From positions 3,000,501 to 3,064,500 of the forward strand of contig NZ_CP073720.1 in the NCBI RefSeq assembly GCF_025137375.1: a DNA stretch of 64,000 nucleotides, given 5' to 3'. Below, piece by piece: positions 47,649-64,000 of this stretch. Numbering within the stretch: position 1 is the first letter of the stretch; each line of letters starts with the position of its first letter. The notes beneath the pieces were generated by a model. It was not told the origin of the DNA, ran no database searches, and saw only the letters and a list, made by a program, of their open reading frames with translations. Source of the DNA: Dactylosporangium fulvum. Lineage in GTDB: Bacteria > Actinomycetota > Actinomycetes > Mycobacteriales > Micromonosporaceae. A program made the position numbers and the translations under genes.

Positions 47649-47790
47649 GCCGGGCCGCTGTTCACTCCACATCGGACACACGGGAGATCGAACACCACCC
47701 TCAGACCGATGTCAGCCCCAAGTCCTGGTTCCACCCGGAGGACAAGAAAGCCTCCTGTCGGGGCACGGACGCGCGACTAGCCTGCCTCGG

Positions 47791-49032
47791 GTGGAGCGAT
47801 TGGCGATCGACGGGGGCACGCCGGTGCGGACCCGGCCGTTTCCCGGTGTCCTCGAGCCCGGCGGGCGCACGTTCGGCGAGCAGGAGCGGGAGGCTGTGCT
47901 CGCCGTGCTGGACAGTGCGGTGCTCAACGCCACCTGCGGCGGGCCGTGGCTCGACGACCTGGAGTCGGCGATGGCGCAGCTGCACGGGGTGCCGCACGCG
48001 GTGGCCTGCTCCTCGGGGACGGCCGCGTTGCACCTGGCGGTTGCGGCCGTCGACCCGGAGCCGGGGGACGAGATCATCACCACGCCGCTGACGGACTTCG
48101 GGACCGTCATCGCGATCCTGGCCCAGAACGCGGTGCCGGTCTTCGCCGATGTGGACCCGGCCACCGGCAACCTGACGGTTGAGTCGGTGCGGGCCTGCCT
48201 GTCGCCGCGCACCCGGGCCATCGTGGTGGTGCACCTCTTCGGGGCGGCGGCGCCGGTGCGGGAGCTGCGGGCACTCGCCGACGAGCGCGGCATCGTGCTC
48301 ATCGAGGATTGCGCGCAGGCGTATCTGGCCCGGCCGCCCGGCGGTGACCGGCCCGTGGGCGGCTACGGGCACGCCGGCTGCTTCAGCCTGCAGCAGTACA
48401 AGCATGTGACCTCGGGCGACGGTGGACTGGTGATCACGTCGGACGCGGGGCTGGCCGAGCGGATGCGGCTCTTCGCGGACAAGGCGTGGCCCCGGGAGGA
48501 CGGGCGGACCCATCTCTTCCTGGCGATGAACTACCGGATGACCAACCTGACCGCGGCCGTGGCGGGCGTCCAGTTGCGCCGGCTGCCCGGCGTGGTGCGG
48601 CAGCGCCGGCAGCTCGCCGCCCGGCTGTGTGACGCGGTGGCCGGCCTGGAGGGCGTGCGGATGCCCGCCAACCCGCACGACCACGCCTGGTGGGTCGTGC
48701 CGCTGATCCTGCCGGGAGGCGGCAACCAGCGGTGGGCACAGGCGTTGACGGCCGAAGGGGTCACCGCGCACGCGGGCTGGCTCAAGATGCCGGTGTACCG
48801 GTATCCGGCGCTTGCGCAGCGACGGACCTACGGCCGGTCGGGTTTCCCGTTGACCAGCCCGCCGGCGCGGCAGGAGTGGCACTACCCGCCGGGGCTGTGC
48901 CCGGAGGCGGAGCGGCTGATCGAGCACACGCTGGTGATGCTGCCGTGGAACGAGAACTACACGACGTCCGACGTGGACGACATCGCCGCGGCGGTGCGCA
49001 AGGTGCACGCGGCGATGCCGTCCGTCCGGTGA
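47791..49032 (+). CDS. DegT/DnrJ/EryC1/StrS-family PLP aminotransferase
   Basis: 413 residues from GTG 47791. 'ERLAIDGGTPVRTRPFP' is the usual N-terminus of StsC/StrS-like enzymes. 'ACSSGTAALHLAVAAV' binds the cofactor phosphate, 'VLIEDCAQAY' holds the ring-stacking Asp, and Lys204 in 'FSLQQYKHVTSGDGGLV' should form the Schiff base. A -10-like TAGCCT 7 nt before the GTG suggests a leaderless mRNA. The family transaminates keto-sugars or inososes in both directions. In this catabolic cluster it may remove or install an amino group on a sugar or cyclitol. Confidence 0.9.
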   Translation: MERLAIDGGTPVRTRPFPGVLEPGGRTFGEQEREAVLAVLDSAVLNATCGGPWLDDLESAMAQLHGVPHAVACSSGTAALHLAVAAVDPEPGDEIITTPLTDFGTVIAILAQNAVPVFADVDPATGNLTVESVRACLSPRTRAIVVVHLFGAAAPVRELRALADERGIVLIEDCAQAYLARPPGGDRPVGGYGHAGCFSLQQYKHVTSGDGGLVITSDAGLAERMRLFADKAWPREDGRTHLFLAMNYRMTNLTAAVAGVQLRRLPGVVRQRRQLAARLCDAVAGLEGVRMPANPHDHAWWVVPLILPGGGNQRWAQALTAEGVTAHAGWLKMPVYRYPALAQRRTYGRSGFPLTSPPARQEWHYPPGLCPEAERLIEHTLVMLPWNENYTTSDVDDIAAAVRKVHAAMPSVR

Positions 49033-49192
49033 CGGCCTACAGGACGTCCATCCGCATCAGCGAGGAGCCGTTGGCCCAGTAGGGGCGCACTTGGCGGGCC
49101 GAGCACCGTTCTTGTCGTGCACAGGGTCGGGCCTTGTGCGGGTGCCACGGAATTCGCCGCGCCGCCGTGAGCTGCGGTTAGGGTCGGTGCGC

Positions 49193-50299
49193 ATGCGGAT
49201 CACTGAGGTCACCGCGGTTGCGGTGCAGGTGCCCAGGCAGGTGCCGATGGTGGCGAGCCAGGGTGCCATCAGCGTCAGCGAGTTCGGCGTGGTGCGGATC
49301 GACACCGACGCCGGCGTCGTGGGCTGGGGCGAGATTGCGATGTCCTGGGGCCGGGTCGGGCGGGCACTCTGCGGCGATGTGGCGCGGAGCCTGGCACCGG
49401 TACTGGTGGGGCTGGACCCGCGGGACGTGTCGGCGTGCGTGATGGCGATGCAGCGGATCCTGCACATCACCCCGGACGGCGCACACGCGGCGCGGGCCGC
49501 GGTGGAGATGGCACTGCTGGACATCGCGGGCAAGGCGGCCGGTGTTCCGGTGTACCGGCTGCTGGGCGGACGGGTGCGGGACCGGGTCCCGATGGCGTGG
49601 CCGATCCCGTGGGGTGCGCCGGCCGACACCGCCGACGCCGCGTCGTGGGCGGTGGAGCAGGGGTTCCGTACCGTCAAGCTGAAGGTGGGCCGGCCGGGGG
49701 GAGTGGACCGGGACGCGGTGGCGGCGGTGCGCTCGGCGGTCGGCGACGGGGTGGCCATCAAGGTGGACGCCAACATGGCCTACCGTTCGGCGGGCGAGGC
49801 GTTCGCCGCGCTGCGACCGCTGGAGGAGTTCGGGCTCCAGCTCATCGAGCAGCCGTTGCCGGTGCGTGACCTGGACGAGATGGCGCGGCTGCGCGACCGC
49901 CTGGCGACGCCGCTGCTGCTGGACGAGTCGTGCTGGGAGCTGCGCGACATCGGCGAGATCGTCCGCCGGGGCGCGGCGGATGTCCTCAACGTCTACGTCG
50001 TGGAGATGGGCGGGCCGCTGCAGGCGTGGAAGGCGTTCGCGGCCGCCGAGTCGGCGGGGCTGACCGGGTTGCTGGGCAGTCAGTGCGAGATGGGCCTGGC
50101 GACGGCGGCGTGCGCCCACGTCGGCGTGGCGGTGCCGAACCTGGCGTACGAGTCGGACGTGGTGGGGCCGCTGCGCTATCCGCGTGACATCGTGCTGAAC
50201 CCGCCCCGGATCGAGGACGGGTTCCTCTACGCCCCGGACGGTCCCGGGCTCGGCGTGGAGATCGACGAGGATGCGCTCGACGCGCTGCGGATCGGGTAG
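49193..50299 (+). CDS. Enolase-superfamily (mandelate racemase-like) acid-sugar dehydratase
   Basis: 368 residues from ATG 49193. The barrel has the KxK motif (Lys162/Lys164, 'VKLKVG'), metal ligands Asp192 ('VDANMAY'), Glu219 ('IEQPLP') and Glu245 ('LLDESC'). Such enzymes dehydrate sugar acids or racemise/cycloisomerise carboxylates. No His general base of mandelate-racemase type is obvious, so a muconate-lactonising or dehydratase activity fits. A -10-like TAGGGT 8 nt upstream suggests leaderless translation. Ends at a strong terminator. Confidence 0.88.
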   Translation: MRITEVTAVAVQVPRQVPMVASQGAISVSEFGVVRIDTDAGVVGWGEIAMSWGRVGRALCGDVARSLAPVLVGLDPRDVSACVMAMQRILHITPDGAHAARAAVEMALLDIAGKAAGVPVYRLLGGRVRDRVPMAWPIPWGAPADTADAASWAVEQGFRTVKLKVGRPGGVDRDAVAAVRSAVGDGVAIKVDANMAYRSAGEAFAALRPLEEFGLQLIEQPLPVRDLDEMARLRDRLATPLLLDESCWELRDIGEIVRRGAADVLNVYVVEMGGPLQAWKAFAAAESAGLTGLLGSQCEMGLATAACAHVGVAVPNLAYESDVVGPLRYPRDIVLNPPRIEDGFLYAPDGPGLGVEIDEDALDALRIG

Positions 50300-50306
50300 C
50301 CCGGTG

Positions 50307-50336
50307 CCGTGGGCGGCGCCGGTGCGCCGCCCACGG
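50307..50336. terminator. Bidirectional terminator between convergent genes
   Basis: Perfect 12-bp arms CCGTGGGCGGCG (50307-50318) and CGCCGCCCACGG (50325-50336) around a 6-nt loop, placed exactly between two convergent stop codons. No U-tract. Confidence 0.85.
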
Positions 50337-50338
50337 TC

Positions 50339-51634
50339 TCACACCTCGCGCAGCGCCTCGGCGACGATCTCCACGGTGCGGTCGATGTCGGCGTCGGTGT
50401 GGGCGACGGAGAGGAACCACAGCCCGCGCGGCACGATGTTGATGCCGCGGGTGAACAGTGCCCGGTGGAACCGGGCGGCGGCGGCCCGGTCGGTGGCGGC
50501 GAAGTCGCGGTAGTCGAGGACCGAGTCGGATGCCGTGAAGTAGGTCTGGAACACCGGTCCCGGGCCGTCGACGAGCATCGGCACCCCGGCGTCGGCCGCG
50601 GCGGACCGGATGCCCTCCATGAGGCGTCGTCCCGTCGCGTAGAGGTGCGGGTAGATCCGGTCCCGGTCCCGATCCAGGACGGTGAGGTTGCCGACCGCGG
50701 CCGCCATCCCGAGCGGGTTGCTGTTGAAGGTGCCCGCGTGCCCGACCTCACCCCGGGTCACCAGTTCCATCACGGACGCCTTGCCCGCGATGGCGGCGAC
50801 CGGCAGCCCGCCGGCGATGGCCTTGCCGAACACGGCCAGGTCCGGGACGACCCCCAGGTGCTCCTGCGCACCGCCGGGCGCCAGCCGGAATCCGGTGATC
50901 ACCTCGTCGAAGATGAGCAGCGCACCGTGCTCGCGGCAGAGGCGCTGCACGGTGTCGAGGAACCCGGGCACCGGGGCGATGCAGCCGGTGTTGCACAGCA
51001 CCGGCTCCATGACCACGGCGGCGACCTCGTGACCGTGCTCGGACATCAGCGCGGTCAGCGCCTCGGCGTCGTTCCACGGCGCGACGATCAGGTCCGCGCC
51101 CCCACTGAGTTGCTGGCCGCCGCTGCCGGGCACCGGCCGCGGGGACCGGGCCGGCCCGGCGCTGTCGACCGCCGGATGCAGGCTCCAGAGCGCGGCGTCG
51201 AGCCACCCGTGGTAGTGCCCCTCGAACTTGAGGATCTTCTGCCGTCCGGTGGCGCCCCGGGCGATGCGCCAGGCGCCGATGACCGCCTCGGAGCCGACCG
51301 TGTTGAACCGGATCAGCTCCGCGCAGGGGACCAGGCGGCAGACCAGCTCGGCGGCGGTCACCTCCAGCTCGTGCTGGGCGGCATAGGCCTGACCCCTGGT
51401 GAGCTGCCGGTTCACCGCGTCCACCACGGCGGGTGCGGTGTGCCCGAGCACCATCGGACCCTGCGCGAGGACGTAGTCGACGTATTCGGTGCCGTCGGCG
51501 TCCCACAGGTGCGCGCCGTGGGCCCGGTCCACATACAGGGGCACGAACTGGCTGCGACGGGCGTCGCTGGAGACACCGCCGGCAAGTACCTTTTGTGCCA
51601 GTTCGTAGAGTTCGGCGCTGCCCATTGATGTCAC
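50339..51634 (-). CDS. Class III PLP aminotransferase, glutamate-1-semialdehyde aminomutase-like
   Basis: 431 residues. 'LAQGPMVLGHTAPAVVDAVNRQL', 'ELIRFNTVGSEAVIGAWRIARGATGRQKILKFEGHYHGW', 'LIFDEVITGFRLAPGG' and 'VFGKAIAGGLPVAAIAG' (Schiff-base Lys271) are those of the GSA-aminomutase branch of class III. True HemL is usually longer-conserved and sits with haem genes, so this is more likely an omega-type aminotransferase or aminomutase acting on the cluster's substrate. It is divergent from the oxidoreductase-importer operon. Confidence 0.88.
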   Translation of the reverse strand: MTSMGSAELYELAQKVLAGGVSSDARRSQFVPLYVDRAHGAHLWDADGTEYVDYVLAQGPMVLGHTAPAVVDAVNRQLTRGQAYAAQHELEVTAAELVCRLVPCAELIRFNTVGSEAVIGAWRIARGATGRQKILKFEGHYHGWLDAALWSLHPAVDSAGPARSPRPVPGSGGQQLSGGADLIVAPWNDAEALTALMSEHGHEVAAVVMEPVLCNTGCIAPVPGFLDTVQRLCREHGALLIFDEVITGFRLAPGGAQEHLGVVPDLAVFGKAIAGGLPVAAIAGKASVMELVTRGEVGHAGTFNSNPLGMAAAVGNLTVLDRDRDRIYPHLYATGRRLMEGIRSAAADAGVPMLVDGPGPVFQTYFTASDSVLDYRDFAATDRAAAARFHRALFTRGINIVPRGLWFLSVAHTDADIDRTVEIVAEALREV

Positions 51635-51819
51635 TCTCCGTTTTCGTCGCGGTATCCGCCGAACGACCGTAGGCCGGGCCGGGCAGGATCTGTCAAGGTC
51701 GACAAAAAACTCGGGACCAGCAGGACAACAAATCGCCTGGGATCACATGAAGCGTGCTTGTCCATCTGTTGATCGCAACTTACGGTCATCGGACAGCACG
51801 CGGAGTGAGGAGGCGGGGC
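51635..51819. promoter_or_regulatory. Divergent promoter between the aminotransferase and oxidoreductase/importer operon
   Basis: 185 bp, AT-richer around 51700-51790. A short inverted repeat TGTC-N6-GACA lies at 51691-51704, and GGACAA (51723-51728) with TTGTCC (51758-51763) forms a wide pair. These recall GntR/LacI-type half-sites but no regulator gene is nearby to match them. GAGGAGGCGG at 51807-51816 is the ribosome site for the oxidoreductase. Confidence 0.35.
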
Positions 51820-52827
51820 GTGGACCGGTTGATCGTCGGCGTCGTAGGGACAGGGATCATGGCGCGAACGCATGCCGCCGTGCTGGACTCGTATCATCGC
51901 AGCGCCGTCGGCGGCTGGGTCAGCCGCGATCCGGCCCGCGTGACCGGGCTCGGCGACGTGCCGGTCCATTCCGACGTGCCGTCGATGGCCGCGGATCCGG
52001 CCATCGGCGCGGTGCTCGTGGCCACCCCGGATCACCTGCACACCGCGCCCGCGCTGGCCGCCATCGAGGCCGGCAAGCACGTGCTCATCGAGAAGCCGCT
52101 GGCGACGACGGTGGCGGACGCCCGGCGGATCCGGGACGCCGCGAACGCGGCAGGGGTCACCGTGATGACCCTCTTCAACCACCGCTGGGTGCCCGCCTAC
52201 TGGCAGGCGCACGAGCAGACCGCCGGCCGCCGTCCCGTGCTGGCCTACGCCCGCAAGAACGACACCCTGTTCGTTCCCACGCAGATGATCGGCTGGGCCG
52301 GGCAGACGACGCCGTCGTTCTTCCTCACCAGCCACGACCTCGACCTGCTGCTGTGGTACTTCGACGATCGCGTCGAGCGGGTGTACGCCAGCGCTGTGCA
52401 CGGTGTGCTGCGCGAGCACGGCATCGACACGCCGGACGCGGTACAGGCGCAGATCCGGTTCGCCGGCGGCGCGGTCGCCACCCTCGAGGCGTGCTGGACG
52501 TATCCCGACACCTTCCCCACCATGACTGACTCGTTCCTGGAGCTGATCTTCGCCGACGCGGTGGTCCACCTCGACCGCAAGCGGGAGCAGATCGAGATCG
52601 CCACTCCGGACCGCTTCAGCTATCCCCGGAACCAGCTCGCCGGTCGGGTCGGCGGCAAGCCGTCCGGTTCCGTGGCCGCCGCGGTCACACACTTCGTGGA
52701 CGCGGTGCTGGACAAGACCCCGCCACTGGTCACCGTGGACAGTTCGGTGCACGTCACCGAGGTACTGGCCGCGATCGACACGTCGTGGCGAACCGGGCAG
52801 CCGGTAACTGTCGACATTGGAGAGTGA
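51820..52827 (+). CDS. Gfo/Idh/MocA-family NAD(P)-dependent oxidoreductase
   Basis: 335 residues from GTG 51820 (good ribosome site). 'VGVVGTGIMARTHAAVLDSY' is the Rossmann fold, 'VLVATPDHLHTAPALAAIEAGKHVLIEKPLATTVADARRI' contains the EKP motif with the conserved Lys, and 'FFLTSHDLDLLLWYF' supplies the catalytic His region. These enzymes oxidise a hydroxyl of a sugar, inositol or sugar acid. It leads a seven-gene operon with the CUT1 importer and hydrolases. Confidence 0.92.
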   Translation: MDRLIVGVVGTGIMARTHAAVLDSYHRSAVGGWVSRDPARVTGLGDVPVHSDVPSMAADPAIGAVLVATPDHLHTAPALAAIEAGKHVLIEKPLATTVADARRIRDAANAAGVTVMTLFNHRWVPAYWQAHEQTAGRRPVLAYARKNDTLFVPTQMIGWAGQTTPSFFLTSHDLDLLLWYFDDRVERVYASAVHGVLREHGIDTPDAVQAQIRFAGGAVATLEACWTYPDTFPTMTDSFLELIFADAVVHLDRKREQIEIATPDRFSYPRNQLAGRVGGKPSGSVAAAVTHFVDAVLDKTPPLVTVDSSVHVTEVLAAIDTSWRTGQPVTVDIGE

Positions 52828-52833
52828 GACCCG

Positions 52834-54171
52834 ATGAGGTTACGAAAGCTTGTACGCATGGGCGCCGCGGCCGTAGCCGTGTCGCTCACACTGACCGGCT
52901 GTTTCACCCAGGGCAACGACACGAAGAGCAGCGACGACAAGCCGGCCAACCTGACCGGTGAGTTCGAGGTCGTCAGTTTCTATCCGGAGGGCTCGCCGGA
53001 CTACAAGCGCCTGGAGGGGCTGGCCAAGGAGTTCGAGGGCCGCTTCCCCGGCGCGAAGGTCAAGCTCGTCTTCGGCGGCGGGCAGGACGTTCCGAAGATT
53101 CAGGCCAGGTGGCGGGCGGGCAACCCGCCGGAGGTGAACTACGGCTTCTTCGGCCGGATGGCGGGCAACCCCGACGGCATGAAGTACGTGGAGGCCGGCC
53201 AGGTCCAGTCGCTCAGTGACGCCATGGGCAAGAACCTGACCGGATTCGACAAGCCGTGGAAGGACGCGGTGCTGCCGGCGGTCCGCACGATCGTCACCAG
53301 CACCGACGGCACCTACTACGCCGCACCCGAAGCGGTCACCACCATCCAGTTCTTCTACAACAAGAAGGTCTTCCAGCAGCTCGGCCTCAGCGCACCGAAG
53401 ACGCTTCCGGAGCTGTTCGAGGCGGCCGACAAGGTCAAGGCCTCCGGGGTGGCGCCCTTCGCGGTCACCGGCACCTTCGCACCGTACCTGCAGCTGTACC
53501 TGGACTACCTGCTGATGCGCCGCAGCGGCACGCAGAACATGCTCGACGTCATCGCCGGCAAGAAGGACTTCGCGTCGCTTCCCGGCGCCGCCGAAGCGGT
53601 GGCGGACCTGCACAAGATGGTCAGCTCCGGCTACTTCATCGACGGGTTCAAGTCGACCGACTTCACCGCCGCGCAGCTCGCCTTCTTCCAGGGCAAGGCC
53701 GCGATGATCCTGATGGGCTCCTGGCTCATCGGCGAGATGAAGGAGAGCATCCCGGCTGACTTCGAGGTGGGCACGTTCGCGTTCCCGACCGTCCCGGGGG
53801 CGTCCGGCGACCAGACCGGCGTCTACGGCGGCGTCAACGTGCAGACGGTGGCCAAGCAGTCCAAGAACCCGGCGCTCGGCGTCGAGTGGCTGCGGTTCGT
53901 GGCGGAGAAGTCCAACCAGGAGGCCTTCGTCTCCGCGACCGGCAACATCTCCGCCTACGAGGGTGTCGCCGCGCCCAAGGGCTTCGAGGCGCAGGCCGAG
54001 ATGCTCAAGCAGGCGAACGCCTTCGCGCCGAGCTACCTAGGCATCCTGTCGGAGCCGGCGGAGGTCAAGGACGCCTACGGCCAGGCGGTCGTGAAGCTCT
54101 TCTTCGGCCAGGCCGACGCGCCGGCGACCGTGCAGAGCATCAACGACGGACTGAAGAAGGCCCGCGGTTAA
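52834..54171 (+). CDS. CUT1-type sugar-binding lipoprotein
   Basis: 445 residues. Signal peptide with lipobox 'LTGC' near residue 25. 'VSFYPEGSPDYKRLEGLAKEFEGRFPGAKVKLVFGGG', 'TTIQFFYNKKVFQQLGLSAPKTLPEL' and 'AQLAFFQGKAAMILMGSWLIGEM' match SBP_bac_1 oligosaccharide-binding proteins. It captures an oligosaccharide outside the cell and delivers it to the two permeases that follow. Confidence 0.93.
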   Translation: MRLRKLVRMGAAAVAVSLTLTGCFTQGNDTKSSDDKPANLTGEFEVVSFYPEGSPDYKRLEGLAKEFEGRFPGAKVKLVFGGGQDVPKIQARWRAGNPPEVNYGFFGRMAGNPDGMKYVEAGQVQSLSDAMGKNLTGFDKPWKDAVLPAVRTIVTSTDGTYYAAPEAVTTIQFFYNKKVFQQLGLSAPKTLPELFEAADKVKASGVAPFAVTGTFAPYLQLYLDYLLMRRSGTQNMLDVIAGKKDFASLPGAAEAVADLHKMVSSGYFIDGFKSTDFTAAQLAFFQGKAAMILMGSWLIGEMKESIPADFEVGTFAFPTVPGASGDQTGVYGGVNVQTVAKQSKNPALGVEWLRFVAEKSNQEAFVSATGNISAYEGVAAPKGFEAQAEMLKQANAFAPSYLGILSEPAEVKDAYGQAVVKLFFGQADAPATVQSINDGLKKARG

Positions 54172-54178
54172 GGGGTTC

Positions 54179-55084
54179 ATGGCGATGAGACGGCAGCGGG
54201 CAGGGATCGTGGAGCGCCAGAAACGGCGTCTGGTGATTCCCTTCCTGCTGCCGGTTCTCGCCGTCTACGGGTTCTTCATGCTCTATCCGGCGTTCAGCAC
54301 GTTCTACGTCGCCGTCACCGACTGGGACGGGGTCAAGGTCCCCAACTTCGTCGGGCTCGGCAACTTCACCGAGCTGGCGTCGGACCGGCTGTTCCGGTCC
54401 ACCATCGGCAACACCGTCATGTTCACCGTGCTCGGCGCGCTCATCCTCTTCCCGGCGGCACTGTTCTTCGCCGCCGTCACGCAGAAGCTCCGCGGCGGCA
54501 AGTTCTACCGGTTCCTGATCCTGGCGCCGGTCGCGCTGTCGGTGACCACCGCGGCGCTGCTGTGGAAGTTTCTGCTCAATCCCACCTTCGGCTTCATTCC
54601 CGAGGCGTTGCGGCTGGTCGGGCTCGACGGGCTGGCCGACTTCGAACTGCTGGGCAGCACCTCGACCGCGATGCTGATGGTGGTCCTGGCCACGGTCTGG
54701 CACGGGGTGGGCATCTGGACGATGCTGTTCTCCGCCGCGCTGGAACGGGTGCCGGCGGAGCTGCGGGAGGCCGCCATGCTCGACGGGGCGTCGGCCTGGC
54801 AGACCTTCCGGTACGTGATCTGGCCGCTGATCTGGGACGTGACCCGCACGCTGCTGATCCTCTGGATGATCCAGGGCCTGCAGACGTTCGCCTTCATCAT
54901 CGCCATGACCGGTGGTGGGCCGCTCAAGTCGACCGAGGTCATCGGCACCTACCTCTACAGCGTGGCGTTCAGCGAGGGCCGGTTCGGCTACGCGGCGGCG
55001 ATCGCGGTGGTGCTCTTCGGCGCGATCCTGGTCCTGACCCTGGCCGTGAACCGGTTCTCCCGGCGCGAAAGCGAGCAGTACTGA
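54179..55084 (+). CDS. CUT1-family sugar ABC permease (MalF-like)
   Basis: 301 residues, six helices. 'FLLPVLAVYGFFMLYPAFSTFYVAVTDWDGVKVPNFVGLGNF' is the classical start, and 'ALERVPAELREAAMLDGASAWQTFRYVIWPLIWDV' holds the EAA coupling motif. 7 bp after the binding protein and overlapping the next permease. No ATPase gene is in the operon, so a shared MsiK-like ATPase must serve it. Confidence 0.93.
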   Translation: MAMRRQRAGIVERQKRRLVIPFLLPVLAVYGFFMLYPAFSTFYVAVTDWDGVKVPNFVGLGNFTELASDRLFRSTIGNTVMFTVLGALILFPAALFFAAVTQKLRGGKFYRFLILAPVALSVTTAALLWKFLLNPTFGFIPEALRLVGLDGLADFELLGSTSTAMLMVVLATVWHGVGIWTMLFSAALERVPAELREAAMLDGASAWQTFRYVIWPLIWDVTRTLLILWMIQGLQTFAFIIAMTGGGPLKSTEVIGTYLYSVAFSEGRFGYAAAIAVVLFGAILVLTLAVNRFSRRESEQY

Positions 55085-55920: not shown

Positions 55921-55924
55921 ACGC

Positions 55925-58081
55925 ATGAGGTTGCGCGTCCGCGAGGAGGTCGGCGTCACCCGCGAGGGCGAGATCGTCGTCGCCGGGGTGCCGGTGGCAG
56001 CCGGGGAGACCGGGCCGTTCACGGTCCGGGATCCGTCCGGCGCGGTCGTCGCCGCACAGGAGCTGTGGCGCTCGGGTGGCTGGGTGGCCCTGGCCTTCCC
56101 GGTCACCCTGGACGCCATGGCGTCGGCGGACCTCACGGTCGGCACCGGCTCCGGGGCGGTGCCGGTCCGTGCGGCCACCGCGGTTGCGGACGGCGACTCG
56201 GTGGTGCTGGACACAGGACGGGTACGGGCGACGGTGCGGCCGGACGCGTTCGACCCCCTCGGCGGCCTCACGGGCCTGCGGGAAGCCCGGGTCCAGCTCG
56301 TGGACGGCGACGGCGTGGCGCACGCGGCGACGAGCGCCGCGGTCCGCATCGTCCACAGTGGACCGCTGCTGGCCCGGGTCACGGTCACCGGCCGGTACGG
56401 CACCTCGTGGGCGTTCGCCGCCACGGTCACCGCGACCGCGGGCGCGCCGCATCTGGACGTGGAGCTGCGCCTCATCAACGACACGGACGGCGACGAGGCG
56501 GCCGTCGCGGAGTGGGCGGCGGTGCTCGGCACCGCGCCGGTTCGCGGCGGCCTGTGCGGGGCGTTCGACGCCGCGCACCGGTCCTCCGGCCCGTTCACGC
56601 TGCGGCACCGCGGCGCCGGGCACGCGCGGGGCATCTTCGCCACGTCCGAGGTCTCCGGCGGCTCGGACTGGACCGACGCCAGCTCCCCGGGGTACCACGA
56701 CCGCTGGGAGTGGGCCGAGCTGCACGGGCGGCAGGGCACCAACTGGGTGATCGCCGAGACCGGGACCGGGCCGGTGACCGTCGCCGTGTACCGGTTCGGA
56801 GAGAACCACCCGGCGGACCTCGCCGTCGGCGAAACCGCGGTCAGCGTCCGGTTCTGGCCGCGGGACGCGGGCGAACTGCGGTTCACGCAAGGGGCGGCCA
56901 AAACGCGGCGGGTGCGGGTCGTCGAGGGCGCCGACCGCTTCGCCGGGCTGCGCCTGGACCACCCGCTGGTGGGACACCCGCTCGACCCCGCCGGCGCGCC
57001 GCGCATCCTGCCCTATCTGCCGGACCGCTACCCGAACCTCGAGGCGCACATCCGCGAGGAGCTCTTCGGGTGGTACCAGTCAGGCCAGTCCCTGGGTTTC
57101 CACGACCTCGGCGACAGCGTGCAGGGCATCACCACGGGGCCGCGGACCGGCTACTCCGCCAACAACGAGCACGACGCGCTCTACGCGCTGGCGCTGCACT
57201 ACCTGCGCTCGGGCGAGCGGGCCCACTACGACTCGGCCAGCGCCTACGCCGACCACCTGTGCGACATCGACCTGATCCACCACAGCACCCGGAACGACTT
57301 CGAGGCCGGCGGGGTCCGGGCGCACGGCCGCGCCCACGTCCACTACGTCCGTGCCCGGACCCCGTCCGGCGAGGTGTGGTCCTCCATCGACACCGGCCAC
57401 ATGTGGACCGAGGGCCTGGTCCTGTTCGCCCAGATCAGCGGGGAGCAGCGGTACCTGGACGCCGCCCGCCTGATCGGCGACTGCCTGATCCGGCTGCACG
57501 GCCTCGGCTGGACCCGCCCCGAGCCCGGCCCGCGCAACAGCGGCTGGCCGCTGATCGCCCTCACCGCCCTGGCCCGCGCCACCGGCGAGTCGTCCTACCT
57601 GGACACCGCGGCCGCGATCGCGCGGCAGGCGGTCAAGACGCAGACCGGTGACGGCCGCTGGCTCATGCGCCTGGGCCTGCACGACGACTACTGCGCCTGG
57701 CAGAACGCCGTCCTGCTCACCGGGCTCGCCAACCTGCTGGCGCTGCAGGACGACCCGGTGGTGCGGGCGGCGTTCGCCGCCGGCTGCCGTTCCCTGGTCG
57801 ACCTCGGCCGCAATCCCGACGGCACGTTCATCTACCTGCGGCGGTTCGACTACCGCTGGGCGAACCGGTCCGCACAGATCCGCGAGGCCTTGGCACTCGG
57901 GTTCGACCTGACCGGCGACGAGCGGCTGCTGGCCGCCGGGCTGCAGGGCGGCGGCCGCTGGTACCGGCCCCGCGGCGCCGCCCCCGCGCTGAGCAACGAC
58001 ATCGCCGAGTGGCGCGGCCACCTCCCGTTCCTGGCCCGCGCGCACGACGCCGGCCTGCTCACCGACCTGCGGGACGAGTGA
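55925..58081 (+). CDS. PcRGLX/YetA-like multi-domain protein (putative exo-rhamnogalacturonan lyase family)
   Basis: 718 residues, no signal peptide, so intracellular. An N-terminal beta-rich segment (about 1-90), a central beta-sandwich-like region (about 95-330) and a C-terminal alpha/alpha-toroid (about 370-710: 'FHDLGDSVQGITTGPRTGYSANNEHDALYALALHYLRSGERAHYDSA', 'HVHYVRARTPSGEVWSSIDTGHMWTEGLVLFAQISGE') fit the three-part architecture of PcRGLX/YetA proteins. In the characterised fungal member the family cleaves rhamnogalacturonan from one end. Cytosolic location suggests action on imported oligosaccharides. Assignment is by architecture and remembered motifs. Confidence 0.55.
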   Translation: MRLRVREEVGVTREGEIVVAGVPVAAGETGPFTVRDPSGAVVAAQELWRSGGWVALAFPVTLDAMASADLTVGTGSGAVPVRAATAVADGDSVVLDTGRVRATVRPDAFDPLGGLTGLREARVQLVDGDGVAHAATSAAVRIVHSGPLLARVTVTGRYGTSWAFAATVTATAGAPHLDVELRLINDTDGDEAAVAEWAAVLGTAPVRGGLCGAFDAAHRSSGPFTLRHRGAGHARGIFATSEVSGGSDWTDASSPGYHDRWEWAELHGRQGTNWVIAETGTGPVTVAVYRFGENHPADLAVGETAVSVRFWPRDAGELRFTQGAAKTRRVRVVEGADRFAGLRLDHPLVGHPLDPAGAPRILPYLPDRYPNLEAHIREELFGWYQSGQSLGFHDLGDSVQGITTGPRTGYSANNEHDALYALALHYLRSGERAHYDSASAYADHLCDIDLIHHSTRNDFEAGGVRAHGRAHVHYVRARTPSGEVWSSIDTGHMWTEGLVLFAQISGEQRYLDAARLIGDCLIRLHGLGWTRPEPGPRNSGWPLIALTALARATGESSYLDTAAAIARQAVKTQTGDGRWLMRLGLHDDYCAWQNAVLLTGLANLLALQDDPVVRAAFAAGCRSLVDLGRNPDGTFIYLRRFDYRWANRSAQIREALALGFDLTGDERLLAAGLQGGGRWYRPRGAAPALSNDIAEWRGHLPFLARAHDAGLLTDLRDE

Positions 58082-59652
58082 TGGCCGTCGACGTCAACGT
58101 CACCGTCGGGCCGTGGCCGACCGACGACCATCCCGCCTGGGCCCCCGCCGACGTCCTGGCCCACCTGGACCGCCACGGCCTCGACGCCGCCCTGGTCCGG
58201 CACAGCCTCGCCGTGCGCTACGACCCGGTCGCCGGCAACCGCGCCTTGCGCGAGGCGCTCGCGGGTGACGAACGGCTGCTGCCGGCCTACGTGCTCGGAC
58301 CGCTCGACTGCGGGGAGTTCGGGCCGCCGGAGGACCTGCCGGCACGGCTCGCCGCGGAAGGCGTGCGCGCGGTGTGGCTGTACCCGCGCAGCCACACCTG
58401 GTCGCCGGACGGCCCGGAGGCGGCAGGTCTGGTCGAGGCGCTCCGGGCGGCGCGGCTGCCGGTGTTCGTGGAACAGGACGAGATGTCGTGGTCCGAGGTG
58501 GACCGGCTGGCCGAAGCCGCGCCGGAGCTGGACATCGTGGTCTGCGGTGTCGGCTATCGCACCCTGCGCCAGCTGATCGCCGTGCTGGACCGCCGTCCCC
58601 GGGTGCACGTCGACCTCTCCTACCTCGCCAGCCAGGACGGCCTCGAACTGCTGGCGGGACGCTACGGCACCGGCCGGGTGCTGCTCGGCACCGGTGCACC
58701 GATCCGCGACGACGCGGCCCCGGTGTTCCTGCTCGCCCGCGCGGCGCTGGCGCAGCCCGGACGCGCGGCCGTGGCCGGCGCCAACGCCCGCCGCATCCTG
58801 CCGTCCGGCGCCGTCCCCGTCCCCGTCGCCGTCGGTGGCGCTGGCGCTGGCGCGGGCCCGGTGAGCGACACCTTCCCGCAGGTGGACGACGTCCTCGACG
58901 CGCACGCGCACATCGGGGCGTGGCCGGGCACGTGGCTGCCGCAGCAGGAAGCGGACGAGCTGGTCGCGGCCATGGACCGGGCCGGGACCCGGCAGACGGT
59001 GGTCTCCCACCTGCTCGGGATCTGGGCCGACCCGATCGCGGGCAACGAGCAGGCCGTCGCCGCCGCGCAGCGGCACCCCGGCAGGGTCTACGTCTACCTC
59101 GTCGCGGACCCGCACCGGCCGCAGGACGAGTCCGTGCTGGCCCGCCAGCTCGAGCTGCCCGGCGTCGTGGGGATCAAGGTGCATCCGCACACGCACGAGT
59201 GCGCGATGGACGACCGGCGCTACGACTGGATCTGGCGGCTGGCCCAGCGGCACGACGTCGCGGTGCTCGGGCACGGGTTCGCCGACACCTGGCACAGCGA
59301 TCCACGCCTGTTCGGCAACGTGGCCGCCCGCCACCCCGAGCTGCGGCTGCTGATCGGTCACAGCGGCGCCACCGTGACCGGGTTCCGCCGCACCATCGAG
59401 GTCTGCCGGGCACACCCCAACGTCTACGCGGAGACCTGCGGCTCGTGGATGACCGGCCGCTGGCTGCGCCGGATGGTCGACGCGCTCGGCGCCGACCGGA
59501 TCGTGCACGGCACCGACGCGTGCGTCATCGACCAGCGCTACGGCCTGGGCCGCGTGCTCGGCGCCGACCTGACCGGCCGTGAACGCGCCCTGATTCTGGC
59601 GAGCAATGCCCGCCGATTGCTCAACATTCCATGTTCAACTGGAGGAGACTGA
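58081..59652 (+). CDS. Tandem amidohydrolase-2-like protein with a catalytically bare N-half
   Basis: 523 residues; ATG 58081 shares its A with the previous stop. The C-half starts at about 260 and has an intact amidohydrolase/TIM-barrel metal site: 'DAHAHIG' (His275, His277), 'KVHPHTHE', 'LLIGHSGAT' and 'HGTDA'. The N-half (1-245, 'DVNVTVGPWP...LLAGRYGTGRVLLGTGAPI') has the same layout and ends similarly ('ANARRILPS' against 'SNARRLLNI') but lacks HxH. A low-complexity Val/Pro/Gly/Ala linker joins them. Such enzymes act as sugar lactonases or decarboxylases; a lactonase role would fit the pathway. Confidence 0.75.
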   Translation: MAVDVNVTVGPWPTDDHPAWAPADVLAHLDRHGLDAALVRHSLAVRYDPVAGNRALREALAGDERLLPAYVLGPLDCGEFGPPEDLPARLAAEGVRAVWLYPRSHTWSPDGPEAAGLVEALRAARLPVFVEQDEMSWSEVDRLAEAAPELDIVVCGVGYRTLRQLIAVLDRRPRVHVDLSYLASQDGLELLAGRYGTGRVLLGTGAPIRDDAAPVFLLARAALAQPGRAAVAGANARRILPSGAVPVPVAVGGAGAGAGPVSDTFPQVDDVLDAHAHIGAWPGTWLPQQEADELVAAMDRAGTRQTVVSHLLGIWADPIAGNEQAVAAAQRHPGRVYVYLVADPHRPQDESVLARQLELPGVVGIKVHPHTHECAMDDRRYDWIWRLAQRHDVAVLGHGFADTWHSDPRLFGNVAARHPELRLLIGHSGATVTGFRRTIEVCRAHPNVYAETCGSWMTGRWLRRMVDALGADRIVHGTDACVIDQRYGLGRVLGADLTGRERALILASNARRLLNIPCSTGGD

Positions 59653-60530
59653 TGTTCCTAGCCCGCGTCCGGGTCGGGGCCGGCCCGGTGGTCCTCACCG
59701 CCCGGATCTCACCGGACTCCCTGCTCCGGCTGGATCGGCTCGGTGTGACCGGCGACGATCCGGTCTCCGTCCTCACCGAGCTCGGCCTCGACACGCTCAC
59801 GAAGATGGTGCGCGAGGCAGTGCAGGCCGGGATCCCCGCCGACCGGCTGCTTCGGGTGGACGAGGTCACCTTCGAGTCGCCGGTGCCCGCGCCGTCGAAG
59901 ATCGTCTGTGTCGCGCTGAACTACGTGGCGCACGCCGAGGAGGGCGAGCAGGCGGTGCCGCAGGAGCCGGTGGTCTTCTTCAAGCCGCCGTCCTCGCTGA
60001 CCGGGCACGGCGCGACCGTGCACTGCCCGGCCCGGTCCCAGCGGCTCGACTACGAGATCGAGCTGGCCGTGGTCATCGGCACCACCGCCCGCGACGTGCC
60101 GGCGGCCGACTGGCGGCGGGTGGTGCTCGGCTACACGGTGCTCAACGACGTGACGGCACGGGACCTGCAGCTGGTGGCGATCGAACGCAACCAGCCGTGG
60201 GACCTGACCAAGGCGTTCGACACGTTCGCCCCCTGCGGGCCGTACCTGGTGACACCGGACGAGATCGCCGACCCGATGAACCTGGACCTGACCCTGACCG
60301 TCGACGGTGAGGTGCGCCAGCAGTCGAACACGAGGCACATGGTGTTTTCCATCGGCGAGCTGATCGAGGTCATCTCCGACGGTATGACGCTGGTCCCCGG
60401 CGACATCATCGCCACCGGCACGCCCTCCGGCATCGGCCCGGTCCCGGACGGCGGCGTCATGGTCGCGACCATCGAATCCGTCGGTACGCTCACCAACCCG
60501 GTCGCCTACGCCCACGTTCCGGCGTCTTAG
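59652..60530 (+). CDS. Fumarylacetoacetate-hydrolase-family enzyme
   Basis: 292 residues from ATG 59652 with a very strong ribosome site (GGAGGA). 'KIVCVALNYVAHAEE' and 'PVVFFKPPSSLTGHGATVHCP', then 'RLDYEIELAVVIG' (metal-binding ExE), 'GYTVLNDVTARDLQ' and 'GDIIATGTPSGIGP' are the family blocks. Members hydrolyse 2,4-diketo acids, hydrate or decarboxylate. In L-rhamnose/L-fucose non-phosphorylating pathways an FAH protein cleaves the 2,4-diketo-3-deoxy acid. Last gene of the operon, followed by a strong terminator. Confidence 0.9.
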   Translation: MFLARVRVGAGPVVLTARISPDSLLRLDRLGVTGDDPVSVLTELGLDTLTKMVREAVQAGIPADRLLRVDEVTFESPVPAPSKIVCVALNYVAHAEEGEQAVPQEPVVFFKPPSSLTGHGATVHCPARSQRLDYEIELAVVIGTTARDVPAADWRRVVLGYTVLNDVTARDLQLVAIERNQPWDLTKAFDTFAPCGPYLVTPDEIADPMNLDLTLTVDGEVRQQSNTRHMVFSIGELIEVISDGMTLVPGDIIATGTPSGIGPVPDGGVMVATIESVGTLTNPVAYAHVPAS

Positions 60531-60546
60531 TCCGGGGGCGTGCCGC

Positions 60547-60581
60547 GGCCGGGAACACCGGGGGATCCGGTGTTCCCGGCC
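60547..60581. terminator. Strong bidirectional terminator
   Basis: Perfect 15-bp arms (60547-60561 and 60567-60581) starting GGCCGGGAACACCGG, with a 5-nt loop GGGAT. It lies between the convergent FAH and deacetylase-like genes. Confidence 0.9.
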
Positions 60582-60595
60582 GTGTGCCGCCGGCC

Positions 60596-62308
60596 TCAGG
60601 TCAGGTGGAGCGTGGTGCGGCCGGGCAGGAGGGTGAGCGCGATCTCCAGGTGCGCGATGCCGTGCCGCTGGACGACGGCACAGCGCAGCGGGGCGCCCGT
60701 CACGGTGGGGATCGGGGAGTCGCCGAGGGGGATCAGGATCGCGGCGTCCTCCAGGGGGAGCTCGGTGTCGATGTGGAGCAGGCCCGGCCCGGGCCGCAGC
60801 GTGACGCCACGGCGGGCGCGTTCCCACGCGCCGATCCGCGCCGCGGTCCACCACCGCAGGCCCAGCGAGCGGCCGAGCTCGACGATCGCGGTGGCCGCCC
60901 GGCGGGTCTCGGGGGACAGGCGCATGTTGGCGCCGTGGAACAGGCAGTGCAGGACGCCGTGGTGCGCCAGCACCTGGCCGAGCACGGCCTCCGCGATCGG
61001 CGGCTGGATCGTCCACGCCAGGTCCTGGAAGTGCAGCGGCAGCATGAGGACCGGGAGCGCGCCGAGCGGATACGCGACGTGGCAGGTACCGAACGGGAAG
61101 CCCACGTTGCCCTGCGTGCCCGGGCCGCGGGATCCGTCGACGAGGATCCCCATGGCCGAACACCAGCGGTAGAAGTCGTCCCAGCCCTGCCAGCGCAGGT
61201 AGTGGTTCTTGTTCGTGGTGACGGGACCGCCGGCGGCGCGGGCCCAGGCGAGCTGGGCGGCCAGTTCGGCCTCGGTGAAGCCGCGGCCGGGGGAGTGCGC
61301 GTCGAAGTGCAGGCCGAGCTCGTGTCCCTCGGCCGTGATCCGGGCGATGGTCTCCGGCGACAGCGCCGGACCGCCGCCCGGCGCCGGCGGCAGGAGGCAC
61401 CACGTCGCTGCGGTACCGCACTGTGCGAACGTCTCGAGCGCCACCGCCGCGTCCGGGTCGGCGTTGCCGTCCGTGTCGTGTGACAGGTGCCCGATCGCGG
61501 GCACGCCGGCAGGCCAGTAGCCCAGCCACGGCAGTGTCGCGGCCGGTGCGAGCCACCACAGCGTGCGCAGCAGCACGTGCCGCCACAGGTCGGCGTGCGG
61601 GCGGTGGAAGTAGGGCGCCACCGCGTCCGGCGGCCACGCGTGCGCGAAGCCGGGCTCGAACACCTCGCCGGCCGGCAGGGCACGGTCCTGCTCGTAGGAG
61701 AGGGCGATCCCGTCGTCGACCTTGAGCACCCCGTCGTCGACCGGGGACGTGCCGTCCGAGGGCGGCACGCCGTCGGCGACCACCGGCCACCCCTGTTGGA
61801 TGCGGACCACCGACTGGCACAGGTCGGCCCCGATCACCATGACGGTGCCGGCGCCCACCCGGCGTACGGTGACCGCCGCGCTGCCGTCGTCCCAGCGCGC
61901 GACGACGGAGGCCGCGGCGGCCGGCGCCATGCGGACACCGCCGAAGGCGCGCAGTGGCACGTCGGGCGGGGTGCCCCAGGCGGGAGCGGGGGCGAAGACG
62001 ACGCGTCCCTCGGCGACCGGGGCGGTGACGCGGACCGCGGCCAGTTCGGCGAGCGGGCCGGGGTCGCCGAGGACGAGCAGGCGGCCGCCGCGGCCGAGCC
62101 ACGGCTGGAGCACGCCGGCGTCGGTGTTGACGGCGGCGGTGACCACGAGGACCGCGAAGCGCGGGTCGGGTGCGGGCACAACCTCGTACGGCAGGCCCGC
62201 ATGGGCGAGGATCTCGGTCAGGTAGCCGGGGAACGCCGGCTCGGCGCCGCCCTGGACGGGATCCAGGACGACGCCGAGCGGCTGAGCGAAATCGGTCACG
62301 GTGTCCAT
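60596..62308 (-). CDS. Polysaccharide-deacetylase-like protein with N-terminal amidotransferase-like domain
   Basis: 570 residues, no signal peptide. Residues about 10-190 resemble a ThuA/glutamine-amidotransferase-like fold ('LGVVLDPVQGGAEPAFPGYLTEILAHAGLPYEVVP', 'GRLLVLGD', 'GAGTVMVIGADL'). Residues about 260-510 look like a NodB/polysaccharide deacetylase barrel: 'IGHLSHDTDGNADPDAAVALETFAQCGTAATWCLLP' (HDxDGN near the usual Asp-Asp site) and 'GHELGLHFDAHS' (His-rich metal motif). It may remove N-acetyl groups from imported amino sugars; that is inference. It overlaps the next gene by 13 bp, so they are cotranscribed. Confidence 0.65.
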   Translation of the reverse strand: MDTVTDFAQPLGVVLDPVQGGAEPAFPGYLTEILAHAGLPYEVVPAPDPRFAVLVVTAAVNTDAGVLQPWLGRGGRLLVLGDPGPLAELAAVRVTAPVAEGRVVFAPAPAWGTPPDVPLRAFGGVRMAPAAAASVVARWDDGSAAVTVRRVGAGTVMVIGADLCQSVVRIQQGWPVVADGVPPSDGTSPVDDGVLKVDDGIALSYEQDRALPAGEVFEPGFAHAWPPDAVAPYFHRPHADLWRHVLLRTLWWLAPAATLPWLGYWPAGVPAIGHLSHDTDGNADPDAAVALETFAQCGTAATWCLLPPAPGGGPALSPETIARITAEGHELGLHFDAHSPGRGFTEAELAAQLAWARAAGGPVTTNKNHYLRWQGWDDFYRWCSAMGILVDGSRGPGTQGNVGFPFGTCHVAYPLGALPVLMLPLHFQDLAWTIQPPIAEAVLGQVLAHHGVLHCLFHGANMRLSPETRRAATAIVELGRSLGLRWWTAARIGAWERARRGVTLRPGPGLLHIDTELPLEDAAILIPLGDSPIPTVTGAPLRCAVVQRHGIAHLEIALTLLPGRTTLHLT

Positions 62309-64000
62309 CTCATGAGCGAGGCGCCGCTACCCCAGTAGACCCGGCCCGACGAGTCGAACGCGATGGTCCGGTAGTAGCTGCCGCCGACGTTGGCGAGGGT
62401 GGTGAGGCCGTCGGTGGCCGGGTCGATGCGGAACAGCAACCCGCCGGTCGTTCCGTAGACCAGGCCGTCGGGGCCGGTGGCGAGCGCCAGCGGCGATCCG
62501 AGGGGGAACGCGCCCAGCTGCGTCACGGCCCGGGTGGCCGGGTTGAACGAGAACCACTTGCCGTCCGAGGTGACCCCGTAGACCTTCCCGTTGCCGCCGG
62601 TGGCGAGCGAGAAGATCCAGGTCGAGCCGGGCACCGGGACGGTGGAGTGCACGACCGACGAGCTGGCCTCGTCGAAGACGAGCAGCTTGGCGTCGCCGGT
62701 GGCGAACACGCCGTCGCCGTGGGTGGTGCTGCCGACGTAGATCTCGCCCTGCCCGGCCGCGAGCGCGAACAGGTTGTGGTCGCCGGCGAGGTGCCGCCAG
62801 GACTGGGACTGGTAGGTGACCGGGTCGATCCGGGTGAGTGCGCCGCCGAGCTGGCCGTAGGCGGCCCCCGAGGCGAGGTACAGCTTGCCGGTCGAGCCCT
62901 TGACGAAGTCCCACGGGCGGTACTGCTGGTCCCCGAACTGGCCGAGGTCGCGCGGGTTGCCACCGGCGGCGGAGTCCGGGTTCCACGGCTGGGCGGGGTC
63001 GTAGGCGGTGACGACGTTGAAGGTGTACGACCCCATGAAGAGCTTGTCCGACGTGGACGTCATCGACAGGATCTCACCCGTGCGGCCCTTCGCGACCGGT
63101 CCCAGCACCGTTGTGGTCCCGGTGCCGGGGTCGGTGCGGAACAGTGCGTTGGTCTCGTAGGTGCCGCCGTAGATCTTGCCGTCGGGACCGGTCTCCAGCG
63201 CGGTGATGGTGGTCGGGGAGCCGGGCAGGGTGAGCTGCTGCCGCACGACCTCGCCGGTGCGCGGGTTGACCCGGCCGTACACACCCTTGTTGCCGATGCC
63301 GGTCAGCCACTGCTCGCCGCCGACGCGCAGCTCGTTGAGATGACCGGAGACCCAGTCGGCGTCGCTGATCCGGGTGCACGCCTTGGTGGCGAGGTTGTAC
63401 CGGATGACGCCGTACGTGGAGCCGATGCAGGTGCCGACCGCCCACGCCTCGTGTCCGGACTTGGGCAGCACCGTGTAGCCGGCCAGCTCCGGCACCTCAC
63501 CGAGAAACTTCGGTTGCTGCCACGGCGGGGTGTTCAGGTTGAACCGCAGCACCCGGGTGTCCGGGGTGACCATCTGGACGAGCAGGTCGTTGCCGACGAC
63601 CGCGGCGTTGTAGCCGAAGGAGTAGCCCGCGTACTGCTGCGGCAGGATGTCGGTCTTCCGGCCGGTCCGCACGTCGAGGATCGTGGCGAAGGCGGGAGTG
63701 CCGCCGCCGACGAACAGCCGCCTCCCGGGCAGCGGCACGAGTGCCTTGGCGTACATGTGGTCCGGGACGACCACACCGAGGTCGCGCAGGGCGCTGGTCT
63801 TCTGGTCGTATTCGAACACCTTGCCCGACGGGTAGGTGCCCAGGTAGAGCTTGCCCCAGGGGGCGGCGGTGATGCCGAAGAAGAAGGTGTGGCCGATGCC
63901 GGTCTCGGGTGACGTGGCGACGATGCCGAGCTGCTCCGTCTTCGGGTCGTAGCGCCACAGGTGGGCGCGGCCGTCGCCGCTCTGGGTGGCCAGGTACACG
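62296..64000 (-). CDS. Beta-propeller protein, 5' end beyond the window
   Basis: At least 567 residues; the frame is open to the right edge, so the true start is not seen. Repeats of about 45-60 residues with 'GKIYGGTYETNALFRTDPGTG', 'GKLYLGTYPSGKVFEYD', 'GEIYVGSTTHGDGVFATGDAKLLVFD' and 'GKVYGVTSDGKWFSFNPATR' form a six- to eight-bladed propeller of the PQQ-like/NHL type. If a signal peptide lies outside the window it would be an extracellular ligand-binding or lyase protein. Linked to the sugar cluster by overlap with the deacetylase-like gene. Confidence 0.75.
   Translation of the reverse strand, partial: VYLATQSGDGRAHLWRYDPKTEQLGIVATSPETGIGHTFFFGITAAPWGKLYLGTYPSGKVFEYDQKTSALRDLGVVVPDHMYAKALVPLPGRRLFVGGGTPAFATILDVRTGRKTDILPQQYAGYSFGYNAAVVGNDLLVQMVTPDTRVLRFNLNTPPWQQPKFLGEVPELAGYTVLPKSGHEAWAVGTCIGSTYGVIRYNLATKACTRISDADWVSGHLNELRVGGEQWLTGIGNKGVYGRVNPRTGEVVRQQLTLPGSPTTITALETGPDGKIYGGTYETNALFRTDPGTGTTTVLGPVAKGRTGEILSMTSTSDKLFMGSYTFNVVTAYDPAQPWNPDSAAGGNPRDLGQFGDQQYRPWDFVKGSTGKLYLASGAAYGQLGGALTRIDPVTYQSQSWRHLAGDHNLFALAAGQGEIYVGSTTHGDGVFATGDAKLLVFDEASSSVVHSTVPVPGSTWIFSLATGGNGKVYGVTSDGKWFSFNPATRAVTQLGAFPLGSPLALATGPDGLVYGTTGGLLFRIDPATDGLTTLANVGGSYYRTIAFDSSGRVYWGSGASLMRWTP

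Follow-up and report, generated by a model that had tools for sequence, protein, structure and literature searches.

A conserved gene cluster with two aminotransferases in Dactylosporangium fulvum, probably a unit for the catabolism of an extracellular glycan

Which compound is broken down by a set of sugar-acid genes that includes two pyridoxal phosphate (PLP) aminotransferases? The question is raised by a locus in a stretch of 64,000 nucleotides (bases 3000501-3064500 of the 10.49 Mb chromosome of Dactylosporangium fulvum, contig NZ_CP073720.1), hereafter called the window. A preliminary description had placed an unassigned carbohydrate pathway at 47791-64000, and its view of a catabolic cluster of unassigned composition was borne out. 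Based on Pfam and NCBIfam scans, every gene type that it had named was found, namely the aminotransferases (DegT and class III), Gfo/Idh, enolase-superfamily, Amidohydro_2 and FAH proteins and the CUT1 binding protein with two permeases. The gene set is thus real, but the interval is cut at the window edge and one secreted propeller, prop1, had not been listed. The cluster spans about 27.5 kb and some 23 adjoining genes, from window position 47791 to L007:15269, where L007 is the sequence continuing past the window and p in L007 corresponds to p + 60000 in window numbering. It is therefore larger than first described; the edge at 64000 splits it, and the 11 further cluster genes beyond that point alter the picture. 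That the cluster is one conserved glycan-catabolic unit is considered very probable. The whole picture put forward here is that of a catabolic island, complete in itself, for a single extracellular glycan that combines a uronic acid with a deoxy- or amino-deoxy sugar, and it falls a little short of an even chance; each of its two parts, the presence of a uronic acid and that of an amino sugar in the substrate, is slightly favoured.

The 718-aa protein of the unit is present in 2 of 101 relatives and absent from 99, so the unit is sporadic; the protein was full length only in the source genome among 396 genomes of the phylum, and was full length in 7 of 22 Jiangella-family genomes. Plasmid tblastn gave distant GH127-like matches only. 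A comparison of genome neighbourhoods, which the preliminary description had named as a check, was run over 40-80 kb around the 718-aa gene in Dactylosporangium sucinum and these seven Jiangella genomes. A near-identical gene set in rearranged order was found in all of them, and a block shared by nine genomes, the source genome included, from two genera of distantly related soil bacteria is not due to chance. Protein identities to the cluster were 92-99% in D. sucinum and mostly 50-82% in Jiangella, the lowest being those of the deacetylase-like protein (38-40%, Jiangella). Both aminotransferases, DegT and AT3, are kept in all nine clusters; that they persisted while the gene order changed is the chief reason for counting them as part of the unit. 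DegT leads into the enolase-superfamily gene (MLE) in Dactylosporangium, while in all seven Jiangella clusters it comes after the CE4-like gene, which it overlaps by 4 bp; AT3 and the first Gfo/Idh gene (Gfo1) are divergent in every cluster. The exceptions were few: MLE lies past the contig end in J. ureilytica, only a paralogous prop1 was seen in two Jiangella, D. sucinum showed no amidohydrolase AH_c, TIM371 was found in the Dactylosporangium copies and not in Jiangella, and one genome (G500) had no call for the KdgD-like gene, its place there being taken by an overlapping AraC call. Two divergent promoter regions and two regulators might suggest two unrelated pathways, one in the window and one running from the AraC to the transglutaminase gene, brought together by chance. 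This is thought very improbable, since the two halves lie side by side in every one of the nine genomes although the gene order has changed, and no case of the second half by itself was met: its transglutaminase-like protein was full length only in the source genome among the 396 sampled.

That there are two PLP aminotransferases proved true; both are conserved members with intact catalytic lysines. The first belongs to the DegT/DnrJ/EryC1/StrS family (DegT, 47791..49032, plus strand; PF01041, 268 bits). Its motif SLQQYK, with the catalytic Lys, occurs in all nine clusters, and the protein is 73-95% identical in the eight others. Because this Lys is kept, DegT is taken as an aminotransferase and not as a DegT-fold dehydratase of the His type. 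It falls far under every named NCBIfam cut-off (best PseC, 180 bits vs 423), and its solved relatives, of which 8gyh is the closest, are mostly sugar, cyclitol and octulosonate aminotransferases, including scyllo-inosose aminotransferases. Pairs of DegT and Gfo/Idh enzymes are classical amine-installing pairs, and the nearest named families are biosynthetic. Both points would suit a cluster that is partly biosynthetic, in which DegT with Gfo1 installs a sugar amine in the manner of NtdA/NtdC or WbpE/WbpB and the remaining genes serve scavenging. We give this reading little credence, as no glycosyltransferase, NDP-sugar enzyme or exporter was recognized among the conserved genes, and the importer and the genes for FAH, the KdgD-like protein and lactonase-type enzymes belong to catabolism.

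The second enzyme, AT3 (50339..51634, minus strand; PF00202), is a GSAM-like class-III aminotransferase and a HemL paralogue. The catalytic Lys is present in eight complete copies; the ninth, in J. ureilytica, ends at the contig end. AT3 clears the broad GSAM model PRK00062 (412 vs 398 bits) and fails the equivalog TIGR00713 (399 vs 527 bits). The GSAM loop of the AAGSG type is absent, GHYHGWLDAALWSLHP being found instead of GCYHGHVDALLAAAGSG, and a separate GSAM-type gene with a typical loop lies at 146423 in the same genome, to which AT3 is 39% identical (39-47% to GSAM-type paralogues). For these three reasons (failed equivalog, missing loop, separate gene) AT3 is most likely not the haem enzyme GSAM, the label that automatic annotation would probably give it.

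The nature of the substrate was approached through the proteins that would meet the glycan. The secreted beta-propeller prop1 (62296-64341, minus strand, its end being L007:4341; 681 aa) has Kelch- and propeller-like Pfam matches, and its orthologues are 67-95% identical (48-49% in clusters showing nothing but the paralogous copy). The BNR propeller (L007:4350-5639, minus strand) was modeled with a pLDDT of 79.9 and a pTM of 0.81. Its structural matches included GH145 chains (Z 29-30), a PL42 Rha-alpha-1,4-GlcA (rhamnose-glucuronate) lyase (Z 29.3), PL25 ulvan lyase (26) and PL24, families that all work on Rha/GlcA linkages; against 5mum, 5mvh, 5muk and 7esk, Z was 29-30 with a root-mean-square deviation of 3.4-3.8 over 333-359 aligned residues, so that the model has the propeller fold of PL42 and GH145. 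PL42 enzymes and BT3686 (GH145) act on Rha-GlcA, and the anterior site of FoRham1, with two His and one Arg, is common to PL24 (PMC8377490). By eye, H104 of the BNR motif GHVYQP aligns with one PL42 His and Tyr126 with the other, which is a lead only; the second, paralogous BNR of Jiangella does not have H104.

The 718-aa protein (55925..58081, plus strand), like the 570-aa deacetylase-like protein, had no Pfam or NCBIfam match at E 0.001. With Pfam it gave only GH127 below threshold (E 0.0074), and none of the PcRGLX models (PF19501, PF21345, PF21346) was matched up to E 5. In profile-profile alignment by hhalign it matched PcRGLX_2nd-domain proteins at 98.5% (E 2e-15) and a true PcRGLX protein weakly (62%, E 7.5e-5). 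There is no visible signal peptide. The structural model is of low confidence (six sequences, pLDDT 48.6) and only its barrel half was used; residues 366-710 match alpha/alpha barrels, among them PL26 5xqo (Foldseek rank 3) and PL27 5no8/5noa. As judged from these profiles it is a distant PcRGLX (PL26)-type protein, and the earlier label of PcRGLX/YetA-like holds for a distant relationship and not for a direct Pfam match. Both lines, from BNR and from the 718-aa protein, point to a uronic-acid glycan with a deoxyhexose, at fold or superfamily level only.

The importer comprises a CUT1 sugar-binding lipoprotein (52834..54171; PF01547) and permeases 1 (54179..55084) and 2 (55084..55920; both PF00528), all on the plus strand. 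The family nearest to the binding protein is NgcE, for N-acetylglucosamine or chitobiose (TIGR03851, 138 vs a cut-off of 400 bits), a likeness that weakly favours an N-acetylated amino sugar. The NodB/CE4-like protein (60596..62308, minus strand; 570 aa) matched Polysacc_deac_1 at E 0.013, below cut-off, and keeps SHDxD; the deacetylase call, as it had been made before, is a weak one. An amino sugar would seem a likely substrate: neither aminotransferase varies in its catalytic Lys, the DegT gene overlaps that of the deacetylase-like protein in the seven Jiangella clusters, and the binding protein is nearest to NgcE. An amino or N-acetylated unit would be the best reason for two aminotransferases.

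An amine-free glycan, such as a rhamnose-glucuronate polymer of the kind found in arabinogalactan caps, is the foremost alternative and would be rather unlikely; here the aminotransferases would act downstream, converting keto acids or semialdehydes to amino acids. The propeller and 718-aa folds match Rha-GlcA and Rha-GalA (rhamnose-galacturonate) enzymes, AT3 resembles GSAM, which is a semialdehyde enzyme, and the deacetylase call is weak, all of which suits such a polymer. However, DegT enzymes, to judge from solved relatives, nearly always use sugar or cyclitol ketones, and common keto acids need no two dedicated, conserved aminotransferases. A cyclitol had been named as another possible constituent of the substrate; instead, the relationships of the propeller and of the 718-aa protein speak for a glycan with uronic acid. 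It is held improbable that the substrate is an aminocyclitol or another small natural product with an amine, whose keto-ring Gfo/Idh and creatininase would open in the way of IolG- and IolN-type enzymes on inositols. Both Gfo/Idh proteins score best to IolG, the creatininase distantly matches IolN, and scyllo-inosose aminotransferases are among the relatives of DegT, but the IolG and IolN matches lie far under cut-off and two kinds of secreted propeller with a PL26-type protein fit a polymer better.

The enzymes expected to oxidize the monomers of a uronic-acid glycan were then compared with curated models; AT3 apart, and there misleadingly, no catabolic enzyme scanned reaches a curated function cut-off. 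The MLE-like dehydratase/cycloisomerase (49193..50299, plus strand; PF13378/PF02746) scored 211 bits to muconate cycloisomerase (TIGR02534, cut-off 335) and 37 to L-rhamnonate dehydratase (PRK15440, cut-off 393). Based on alignment with 2qde, it keeps KxK and the D/E/D metal ligands, while the sixth-strand Lys is replaced by Tyr268; its seventh-strand motif GLLGSQCE is without the His of MR-type acid-sugar dehydratases. Gfo1 (51808..52827, plus strand, start uncertain at 51808-51820; PF01408) and the second Gfo/Idh protein, Gfo2 (L007:10402-11418, plus strand), are both nearest to IolG, Gfo1 with 96 bits vs a cut-off of 355. The double amidohydrolase AH523 (58081..59652, plus strand; PF04909) consists of a degenerate N-half fused to a C-half with a full metal site. 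Among the other amidohydrolases AH_a (L007:7883-8569, plus strand) is degenerate and AH_b (L007:8566-9321, plus strand) and AH_c (L007:12867-13820, minus strand) are intact, which gives three full sites in the cluster. AH_c is 80-82% identical to its Jiangella counterparts, whereas its neighbours are mostly 50-77% identical, and D. sucinum gave no call for it; this suggests a history separate from that of its neighbours.

The FAH-family hydrolase (59652..60530, plus strand; PF01557) has the motif LNYVAHAEE, with the His/Glu pair of acylpyruvate-type hydrolases, in all nine clusters, and scored 191 bits to the 2,4-didehydro-3-deoxy-L-rhamnonate hydrolase model (cut-off 500). This pair is known from Route III FAH hydrolases (PMC6336799). 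The DHDPS-type protein (L007:6972-7886, plus strand) is closest to KdgD (NCBIfam, 229 bits, cut-off 278, vs 87 for DapA); its best solved match, 4ur7, is likewise KdgD, and its Schiff-base Lys is kept. The creatininase (L007:12074-12829, plus strand) matches IolN distantly, with 63 bits vs a cut-off of 245. No SDR was found among the conserved cluster genes, so the usual SDR-type 2-keto-3-deoxy-acid 4-dehydrogenase is absent from them.

From this gene content we infer the substrate, the order of steps and the roles of both transaminases as follows. The secreted propellers would cleave the polymer or attach to it, oligosaccharides would enter the cell through the CUT1 importer, and the cytoplasmic 718-aa protein, a presumed lyase or hydrolase, would split them; the CE4-like protein possibly deacylates. 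DegT would most simply convert a sugar amine to the ketone after deacylation. The monomers would be oxidized non-phosphorylatively at C1 by the Gfo/Idh dehydrogenases, with amidohydrolases acting as lactonases or lactone isomerases to open the lactone and the enolase-type enzyme as dehydratase. AT3 could turn a 4-amino-2-keto-3-deoxy acid into the 2,4-diketone needed by FAH and so replace the missing 4-dehydrogenase; alternatively, a Gfo/Idh enzyme might make the diketo acid. Two exits may be envisaged, one by FAH cleavage to pyruvate and a small acid and the other by the KdgD-like Schiff-base enzyme with the creatininase. In its boldest form the proposal would have PLP transamination replace the sugar-acid 4-dehydrogenase for an amino-uronic or amino-deoxy sugar, DegT deaminating and AT3 feeding FAH, with supply from a new propeller and PL26-like lyase pair; this remains speculative and, on balance, unlikely.

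Several observations weigh against the scheme as a whole. The BNR model also matches lectins (Z 27) and the unrelated enzyme CylK (29.5), and hhalign does not bring BNR into register with a BNR_4/PL42-like protein (5%), the two-His PL42 site not being recovered. The second motif-2 His is absent in all seven Jiangella CE4-like orthologues, so that the Asp-His-His triad is incomplete. In every orthologue seen, the carboxylate Thr of KdgD is replaced by Val and the catalytic Tyr by Phe. As KdgD uses both residues (PMC5114784), the KdgD-like protein is likely to run a reaction related to, and different from, that of KdgD. No KGSA dehydrogenase gene is kept across the clusters: the aldehyde dehydrogenase gene at L007:15269-16786 has no conserved counterpart next to the other eight. 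Finally, the aminotransferases could act on keto-acid products.

Putative regulatory sites were also seen. A candidate operator, GGACAAGAAA, lies upstream of DegT (47740..47749, plus strand), with sister candidates upstream of MLE (49108-49117, minus strand) and between AT3 and Gfo1 (51723-51732, plus strand). The pattern SGACAASAAM has three matches in the window, all in cluster promoters, vs 0.28 expected, the pattern having been derived post hoc from these sites. For this reason, and since the D. sucinum DegT copy is altered and the second half of the cluster has none, it is a lead only. In the region between the AraC and KdgD-like genes (L007:6860-6971) a block, CTGATATACCA, is conserved in eight aligned clusters of two genera and is a candidate operator or promoter. 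A GC-rich inverted repeat at 60531..60595, between the convergent FAH and CE4-like genes and also present in D. sucinum, is likely a bidirectional terminator. Near-exact 15-mers common to the intergenic regions were not found in the source genome.

The remaining cluster genes encode an AraC regulator (L007:5720-6943, minus strand) and, on the plus strand, TIM371 (L007:9321-10433; 370 aa, no significant Pfam or NCBIfam match), a GntR regulator (L007:11409-12077) and a transglutaminase/discoidin protein (L007:13866-15269). The aldehyde dehydrogenase, acyl-CoA synthetase and acyl-CoA dehydrogenase genes downstream and the LysR/EamA genes upstream were placed outside the cluster, as they have not been kept next to its counterparts in the other genomes. 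D. sucinum has a second catabolic cluster with its own CUT1 importer (L027:14787-20000 and L028:1-2445), about 8 kb from the main one. Its proteins include DHDPS-type (35%), MLE-type (29%) and TIM371 (33%) homologues and an aldehyde dehydrogenase 44% identical to that at L007:15269-16786. The Jiangella clusters have additional genes: FAH is followed by a carbon-nitrogen hydrolase, a further BNR-prop1 pair is usually present, and MLE is preceded by two genes, of which one has a DMFA2_C domain and the next is J11. J11 (L016:12272-13927) encodes 551 aa without a Pfam match and, in each of the six Jiangella clusters showing it, shares 4 bp with MLE.

Bacterial capsules, teichuronic acids and lipopolysaccharide commonly contain amino-uronic and N-acylated deoxy sugars, and few catabolic routes are known for them. 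If the scheme is true, it would bring new lyase families and a way for transaminases to lead into non-phosphorylative sugar-acid catabolism, and the cluster would serve as a marker for soil degraders of such glycans.

Among known systems, the Route III L-rhamnose/L-fucose pathway (PMC6336799) likewise has a dehydrogenase, a lactonase-type amidohydrolase, an enolase-type dehydratase, FAH and an ABC importer in one cluster. The likeness noted in the preliminary description is, however, confined to the overall pattern: the dehydratase is MLE-like by score, the SDR 4-dehydrogenase is missing, the KdgD-like gene outside the window contributes a uronate-type branch, and two aminotransferases, a PL26-like protein and secreted propellers are added. 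Strict membership in the L-rhamnose pathway is rejected, the SDR enzyme being missing and the dehydratase lacking the seventh-strand His. The oxidative hexuronate scheme of Agrobacterium, Udh-GLI-GCI-KdgD-KGSADH, uses the same superfamilies (PMC6353982), with amidohydrolase- and enolase-superfamily enzymes and a DHDPS-fold protein to which the KdgD-like one corresponds. Here, in contrast, Gfo/Idh replaces the uronate dehydrogenase, KGSADH is not conserved, and FAH, creatininase and aminotransferases are extra; strict KdgD membership is rejected, given the replaced Thr and Tyr and the score (229 vs 278 bits). With the PL26/PcRGLX exo-rhamnogalacturonan lyases the 718-aa protein shares profile homology to PcRGLX_2nd proteins and, as far as its low-confidence model goes, may share the N-terminal beta region (a beta-sandwich in that family) and the alpha/alpha barrel; it is shorter and lacks a direct PcRGLX match in Pfam. 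The propellers of GH145 and PL42 acting on L-Rha-alpha-1,4-D-GlcA (PMC8377490) are secreted, as is BNR, and gave the highest structural Z among solved chains; BNR differs in having no detectable sequence homology and, apparently, Tyr for one of two active-site His. AT3 has the fold of HemL without the GSAM loop, in a genome with its own GSAM-type gene. No described cluster of like composition was found in the literature searched, whose coverage was partial with few subscription journals, and equally partial searches on amino-sugar DegT catabolism, aminocyclitol/creatininase catabolism, Jiangella and Dactylosporangium lyases, PcRGLX and 8gyh gave nothing relevant. The cluster appears to join non-phosphorylative sugar-acid catabolism to a glycan-utilisation locus with two transaminases, in what is apparently an undescribed pathway.

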